Assembly: GCA_020850695.1 (NCBI GenBank)
Contig: JADZEF010000157.1
Location: 1 to 64,000, forward strand
Length of the DNA stretch: 64,000 nt
Direction: 5' to 3'
Source of the DNA: Planctomycetaceae bacterium
Lineage (GTDB): Bacteria; Planctomycetota; Planctomycetia; Planctomycetales; Planctomycetaceae
Shown here: piece after piece, positions 21,433 through 46,711 of the stretch
Position numbering within the stretch: position 1 is the stretch's first letter
How the letters are laid out: the number at the start of each line of letters is the position of its first letter
Position numbers and translations under genes: made by a program
The notes under the pieces: model-generated
Told to the model about the DNA's origin: nothing
The model's database searches: none
The model's input: the letters and a program-made list of their open reading frames with translations, nothing else

Positions 21433-21600
21433 GCCACGGCAACACGGAATCAAGGAGGAGACAAAAGCATTTTAACAGGAGCACTCAGAGGAAGCAGAGA
21501 GAAGACAAGCAGAGGCAGAGAGGAATCGCCGTCGCATGCATCATCGGCGGCGTCGTTCGACACCTGTATTTGCTCTGCTCCCTCTGCTAGCTCCTGTTGA
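21433..21600. repeat. Degenerate copy of the MITE-like element
   Basis: This segment matches the reverse complement of the 46142-46367 element over most of its length. Shared stretches include ACACGGA(G/A)TCA, GAGACAAAAG(G)CATT, AACAGGAGCA, CAGAGGAAGCAGAGA and CATTCGACACCTG-like TCGTTCGACACCTGTATTTG. The left terminal repeat is mutated and the right one is missing. A nested inverted pair (AACAGGAGC near 21473 and GCTCCTGTT near 21591) remains. Confidence 0.7.
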
Positions 21601-45719: not shown

Positions 45720-46141
45720 GGATTGTCGGTGTGGGAAGCAGCTGCCGCGGATCGGCGTCGATCACGGCGAGGACGCCGCGGCGCGGACGGCAGAGGAAGG
45801 AACGGCGGTCCGGAGGGCTCTGTGGACCGCACGAGCCGCGTCGAAGCGGCGCGGCCAGCCGGAGTTCAAGCTTCGACACGACAGTCGAAGCGATCAACAG
45901 CACGCTTTACTGTCAGGGGGGAGTGTGAGCGGGGAGGCTCCCCGAAGATTGCGACGGCGCGGGCATGACGATTCGGCGGGAAAACTGGCGGTGACTGCGG
46001 GCGGGATGGTGAACAATCTTAGTTGCGCCGGAGTGGACTGACAATCCGAGTCCGTCCGACGGACTGCACGGGGTGCATCCTTCAATTAGTGGCGTTGCGT
46101 CTGATCACGAATCTTCGACTCTGTCGAACTCAGAAGCATTT
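45720..46141. other. Intergenic, upstream of prfC and left of the MITE-like element
   Basis: I looked here on the minus strand for the missing C-terminal half of the ThuA-like protein and saw no matching segment. No other gene, hairpin or repeat is visible. It should contain the prfC promoter. Confidence 0.4.
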
Positions 46142-46367
46142 TTTCACCACGGAGACACGGAGTCACGGAGAAAGCCCATGGCAGCAACACGAGAGACACT
46201 GACTCGAGCGAGGAGAGGGGCAGGGCAAATGCAGGTGTCGAATGACTCCTGCAATCATCCGTGCGACCGGATGTTCGTCATCTCTGCCTGCCTTTTCTCT
46301 GCTTCCTCTGCTTGCTCCTGTTGAATGCCTTTTGTCTTCTCCGTGACTCCGTGTCTCCGTGGTGAAA
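46142..46367. mobile_element. 226-bp MITE-like element with perfect 31-bp terminal inverted repeats
   Basis: The two ends (46142-46172 and 46337-46367) are perfect 31-bp inverted repeats built on CACCACGGAGACACGGAGTC. The interior carries a second inverted pair near each end (GAGCGAGGAG / CTTCCTCTGCTTGCTCCTG). It has no coding capacity and no obvious target-site duplication. A degenerate copy in the opposite orientation is at 21433-21600. No transposase with matching ends is in the window. Confidence 0.85.
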
Positions 46368-46711
46368 CTCGCTGTGAATCCGATGACCATGATCGAGTAG
46401 GCGTCGTCGAGCGTGTACCAGTCGCTCGGGCCGCCGTCGAGGTGGTACTCGACTTGGACGCGATCCTTCACGTTCGAGTGGTCGAGCATCACCTTCAGCA
46501 GCTTGACCGACCACGGATAGTCATGGATGCCGTTTCCGACCGGTCCGTGACTTTTCGGCCCCGCGATCAGCACGATTTTCCGAGGGTGATCCTGCGGCTT
46601 CTTTGACGGAGCGTCCGCCATCGTCGGAAAGGGGAACGACAGATAGGCCAGCACGAACAAGACGAGGGTTCGACAACCGGCCATGAGAAATGATCGGCAA
46701 TCGACTCGCAT
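46163..46711 (-). pseudogene. ThuA-like protein, truncated by the MITE-like element
   Basis: From ATG 46711 the frame encodes a signal-like N-terminus (about 1-31) and then the start of a ThuA-like domain: RKIVLIAGPKSHGPVGNGIH (44-63), then SVKLLKVMLDHSNVKDRVQVEYHLDGGPSDW and YTLDDAYSIMVI (to about 110). At about 46381 homology stops and the frame runs into the 46142-46367 element, ending at 46163 with unrelated repeat-encoded residues (TTETRSHGEDKR). ThuA domains are usually over 200 aa, so more than half is missing and no remnant was seen beyond the element. It lies next to the NHL-type gene on the same strand. Confidence 0.8.

Follow-up and report, generated by a model that had tools for sequence, protein, structure and literature searches.

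We put at about even the chance that the palindrome at positions 46142-46367 of the window (the whole 64,000-nucleotide stretch of planctomycete DNA that was analysed) is part of a nested non-coding mobile element, with a MITE outside, a pair of arms of GxxExxY type inside, and the GxxExxY protein as the enzyme that processes those arms. The GxxExxY-type ends on the window copy hint at a little-studied and very widespread class of mobile DNA. The sequence-only reading of this stretch had left the mobilising enzyme unnamed, and that judgment stands for the outer ends; GxxExxY, on statistical grounds, is a strong partner for the inner ends.

Architecture of the window copy and its outer layer

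The perfect 31-bp inverted repeats described in the sequence-only reading were confirmed. The left CACGGAG quasi-tandem arm, TTTCACCACGGAGACACGGAGTCACGGAGAA (46142..46172, plus strand), and its inverted partner (46337..46367, minus strand) show 0 mismatches across 31 bp, and are 88% complementary when extended to 42 bp. The 23-mer core of TTTCACCACGGAGACACGGAGTCACGGAGAA has exactly two sites within the window at ≤3 mismatches and 0 matches in shuffled sequence, so chance can be excluded for the arms, and single-strand folding of the palindrome gave z = -11. Between the arms lies an inner array of GCAGAG type, AAAAGGCATTCAACAGGAGCAAGCAGAGGAAGCAGAGAAAAGG (46291..46333, minus strand), with a degenerate partner at about 46181-46227. 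This array alone has dozens of separate matches in the genome, and one such array adjoins a GxxExxY gene of the same genome at C7:37231 (L032). The nested inner palindrome and the absence of a gene inside are both real, as is the mutated second copy in the opposite orientation, which lies at 21434..21593 on the minus strand and is decayed and partial (77% identity over 161 bp, with most of one arm missing).

The same reading had taken the 31-bp repeats for the termini of a 226-bp element. Homology with about ten sister copies covers 46071 to about 46383 (plus strand) and identifies the window copy as a member of a MITE family, family A, that reaches its outer end at the left only, in the terminal repeat GGGTGCATCCTTCAATTAGTGG (46071..46092, plus strand). 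The MITE ends therefore lie further out than the 31-bp repeats, with the right one lost, and the repeats are not the termini. On the right, the copy breaks off near 46383 and runs into a truncated secreted-protein gene fragment on the minus strand (46384..46684), whose frame enters the element and reaches a stop at 46163; this fragment had no Pfam match and appears ThuA-like by eye only. The break shows that the window copy is truncated and damaged, so that its perfect ends, which had been read as a sign of recent movement, are no proof of it; the copy is probably immobile and fused to the gene fragment. It carries outer and inner repeats, has no ORF of its own and is shorter than about 600 bp, as expected of a MITE, with only the left outer end present.

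Family A is a MITE of about 360 bp, and the interior seen in the window copy recurs in about ten copies. Their homology extends about 75 bp beyond the 31-bp repeats on each side, to GGGTGCATCCTTYAWTTGGTGG ends, and in the sister copies a second GGGTGCATCC end lies about 75 bp to the right of the CACGGAG arm. The genome contains 25 such outer ends, compared with 0 in the reversed control. Directly outside these ends, at zero offset, five sister copies have 9-bp target duplications (9/9 matches in L003; 8/9 in each of L004, L006, L018 and L309), and a match of 8-9/9 has a chance probability of about 1e-4 per copy. Two relatives (L309 and L314) are only 199 bp long, with a single CCACGGAG unit per side flanking a 30-bp palindrome. 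Many related copies and target duplications in sister copies bear out the earlier description as a MITE-like, multi-copy element, and the duplications suggest that family A was formerly moved by a transposase of the cut-and-paste type. Within 1.5 kb beside the 25 ends we saw no long gene between two GGGTGCATCC ends, several contigs breaking inside copies.

Arm pairs dispersed through the genome

A search of the organism's own genome (8.6 Mb in 440 contigs) returned 104 BLAST matches to the window element. Ends of the form CCACGGAGNCACGGAGNCACGGAGAA, at ≤2 mismatches, occur 38 times in forward and 39 times in reverse orientation, and the reversed-pattern control found 0; with 77 ends, the possibility that the two copies in the window are the only ones falls away. 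Most ends form facing pairs spaced about 90-490 bp apart. At ≤1 mismatch, 63 ends were found in this genome compared with 0-15 in each of 58 relatives, indicating a lineage-specific expansion. Alignment of 61 arms gave the consensus AAAGGCATTTTTTCACCACGGAGACACGGAGWCACGGAGAAAGGCA, which is loose toward the outer edge, with similarity lost at about 14 bp on the outer side and 34 bp on the inner side; facing arms consist of about 45 bp of CACGGAG units. Outside family A, 17 of 27 tested copies had singleton interiors with no detectable relatives among the others, and target duplications around such pairs were not enriched. The recurring thing is thus the arm pair and not the whole unit, and copying of whole units is unsupported for those pairs. 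Pairing of the two arms of one copy was only modestly better than that of arms from different copies, with 3.8 against 4.7 mismatches per 32 (permutation p = 1.5e-4). The CACGGAG arms are an inner module that is independent of the outer MITE.

Several further observations concern these arms. At one locus (L091, G000:C425:39890-39979), one arm has about ten tandem CACGGAGA units and the opposite arm about three, and these unequal numbers suggest slippage within arms. CACGGAG palindromes of 90-180 bp also occur in viral contigs of 4.5-7.4 kb (L360, L371, L372 and L362), at most two per contig and without a GxxExxY gene, and the phage and plasmid records searched contained no match to the end or the element. 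An Rfam search of the element produced only a 19-bit chance match (E 0.92); a known structured RNA was accordingly rejected, so that no known RNA bears out the conserved functional RNA that the sequence-only reading had named as a refuting case. No paper on the arm sequence was found in the literature searched.

Some of the arrays are themselves interrupted. An 89-bp sequence, TCGAGAATG..TATTTTCGGAACAG, is present in 20 full copies in the genome (L323-L342; for example, G000:C331:3910-3998) with 90-100% identity, 11 of them identical, and in nearly all cases it lies directly after the first CACGGAG unit in one orientation. A longer form occurs at four loci, including position 75759 of the window's own contig (C159). 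The contigs end inside this form, so that its body is missing, and no transposase of the 89-bp family was seen in the assembly. The junctions may carry a 2-bp AG repeat. The 89-bp sequence looks like a deletion derivative of a site-specific insertion sequence, and its use of palindromic repeats as a target is like that of REP-targeting insertion sequences (PMC1525189, PMC11208160).

GxxExxY genes and their flanking arms

Inverted quasi-tandem arrays adjoin or enclose each of the five GxxExxY (PF13366) genes that this genome carries. None of the five has CACGGAG ends, the arms being of other types; no GxxExxY remnant was found within the CACGGAG elements of the genome, and the gene is absent from between the arms of the window copy. 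One of the five (L033, G000:C97:23451) has an in-frame TGA and GCGAAT arms on either side; the AAAGGCA boxes at the borders of these arms also bound CACGGAG and GCAGAG arrays.

To quantify the association, we took the two flanks of each locus in 118 genomes of the phylum and scored the best inverted repeat formed by them. A score ≥18 was reached by 22/27 GxxExxY loci, 21/27 IVP loci and 0/26 PIN loci, and by 5% of pairs when flanks were swapped among GxxExxY loci. Among GxxExxY loci of many phyla, including archaea, 59/71 scored ≥15, compared with 0/56 at 1.5 kb distance; 17% of swapped pairs also reached 15 because the motif itself is shared among loci. The arms, which are of the ACCACRGAGRCACRGAG kind, vary by locus yet pair far better within a locus than between loci. 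Facing CRCRNAG tandems on both sides were found at 46/71 and 12/27 GxxExxY loci, 1/27 IVP, 0/26 PIN and 0/57 distal sites, and the window copy likewise has facing quasi-tandem CRCRNAG arms. A like layout around GxxExxY is present in an annotated Bacteroides plasmid record. In a genome of the same family as that of the window (L282, G027:C180), a GxxExxY gene lies directly between ACCACGGAGGCACGGAGGCACGGAGA ends. This locus, together with the tie between the CRCRNAG arm type and GxxExxY, indicates that the window's 31-bp end is of GxxExxY type, and since the gene is present in L282 and missing from the window copy, the latter is at most a gene-less derivative. The L282 element is immediately upstream of a gene that, by eye only, resembles the EutN/CcmL type of microcompartment shell gene.

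Arms are more alike where the proteins are more alike (78 loci; Mantel rho 0.33, p = 5e-4), which would be expected from recognition of the arms by GxxExxY and from shared descent too; the association and covariation as a whole could reflect shared descent rather than recognition. An empty site was available in one case. Two genes that flank a GxxExxY gene and its CACGAAG arms in G134 lie about 173 bp apart in the congeneric G028, with neither arms nor gene between them. This suggests that the arms are absent from the element-free site, and the single comparison, across a diverged intergenic region, does not fix the exact junction or whether the element was gained or lost. The idea that GxxExxY is a phage gene was rejected, since the search patterns retrieved only 6 relatives from 2.9 million viral contigs.

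The structure model of the GxxExxY protein is confident (pLDDT 91), and the invariant residues are E22, D62, E72-x-K74, Q86 and Y90. The best structural match was SSO0001 (Z 8.2), which we take to be a Cas4 protein, followed by further PD-(D/E)XK proteins, Hjc resolvases and the I-Bth0305I domain among them, at Z 5-7; the scores are middling, and Foldseek matches had E above 0.08. Pfam and PADLOC gave weak Cas4 matches, and a sequence search for solved relatives returned none that was significant. The putative catalytic E, D and E-x-K, together with the modelled nuclease fold, fit the PD-(D/E)XK type, and we predict nuclease activity. GxxExxY may be a small nuclease of Cas4/Hjc-like fold that recognises the arms, probably folded into a hairpin or cruciform, and is a candidate partner enzyme for the inner CACGGAG ends. 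Cutting or processing of the arms would be followed by repair that copies or moves the arm-bracketed segment, and gene-less segments like the window copy would be used by GxxExxY in trans.

IVP/S23 genes (PF05635; L066-L070, L127-L155) show a parallel arrangement. The five four-helix-bundle IVP genes of the same genome are likewise beside or between inverted quasi-tandem arrays, and IVP/S23 arrays have a different unit type, for example TTAGTTG and TGCGAAGAG. Across the 118 genomes, 46 have both genes, 11 and 11 have a single one and 50 have neither (Fisher odds 19, p 6e-12, uncorrected for phylogeny). It is conceivable, at somewhat less than even chances in our estimate, that GxxExxY genes and inverted quasi-tandem arms form a separate and very widespread class of bacterial and archaeal mobile DNA that relies on a tiny PD-(D/E)XK nuclease instead of a transposase. 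Such a class would spread arm pairs whose interiors vary, would leave palindromes without a gene behind, and would have a parallel in a class driven by IVP/S23. Both proteins occur widely in environmental genomes; the literature searched contained no established role for either and mentions GxxExxY, in two papers, as a named family only, never in connection with flanking repeats or mobility. The frequent flanking by inverted arrays suggests a testable role for both in mobility or arm processing, and would account for a conspicuous class of dispersed palindromes.

Alternative explanations and known systems

The element could instead be an ordinary MITE, derived from a DDE transposon and marked by GGGTGCATCC ends and 9-bp duplications, in which the CACGGAG arms are passive interior sequence and the likeness to GxxExxY elements has no bearing on movement. 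The shared outer ends and target duplications of family A favor this explanation, as does the homology of sister copies along their full length. However, at least 22 other CACGGAG pairs have neither such ends nor duplications and mostly no common interior, indicating that the arms spread independently of the MITE, and the arm type is specifically linked with GxxExxY elsewhere; we consider this explanation rather unlikely. The arms might also be host sites under selection, perhaps transcription terminators, mRNA stabilisers or nucleoid sites. Selection or gene conversion would then keep them alike around drifting interiors, and GxxExxY genes would settle at them because they are safe. Conserved arms around unrelated interiors, a strong hairpin and the slight covariation of arms within copies would all agree with such a function. 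Patchy, lineage-specific abundance across 58 relatives and the lack of an Rfam family argue against it, as do GxxExxY arms, which are locus-specific in sequence yet pair far better with their own partner than with the arms of other loci, and we judge it quite improbable. We give still less credence to the idea that the arms are insertion hot spots, with GxxExxY as one among several cargo genes that use them as targets. The 89-bp insertion, whose position in the array is identical for nearly all 20 similar copies, is what recommends it, but the arm sequences that flank GxxExxY are many and different, and they change along with the protein.

A nested element with GxxExxY-type arms has partial counterparts among known systems. 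The outer layer resembles bacterial IS-derived MITEs in being small, gene-less and multi-copy, with terminal repeats and, in sister copies, target duplications. It differs in that no parent transposase was found for family A and in holding nested palindromic arrays that also occur without family A. The GxxExxY family itself (TIGR04256 / PF13366) is the one whose gene is bracketed by arms of the window's type. REPINs with RAYT (PMC3116915, PMC3733652) are the nearest functional analogy, since they too are dispersed, paired inverted palindromic modules tied to one gene family elsewhere. The tags and protein class differ: the arms here are CACGGAG quasi-tandems, no GTAG or CGTC tag is present at the palindrome foot in the 61-arm consensus, and the putative partner is of PD-(D/E)XK type rather than an HUH transposase. 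The 23S rRNA intervening sequences, for which mobility has been proposed, hold an S23p gene flanked by inverted repeats that contain heptamer tandem units (PMC4990558). The likeness lies in the small gene, inverted repeats and short tandem units, and IVP loci are laid out alike, whereas the GxxExxY protein belongs to another family and the elements described here lie outside rRNA. The intervening sequences resemble rRNA-borne representatives of the IVP branch of this layout, and the link of flanking arrays with GxxExxY and IVP genes would extend the old idea that such intervening sequences are mobile elements.
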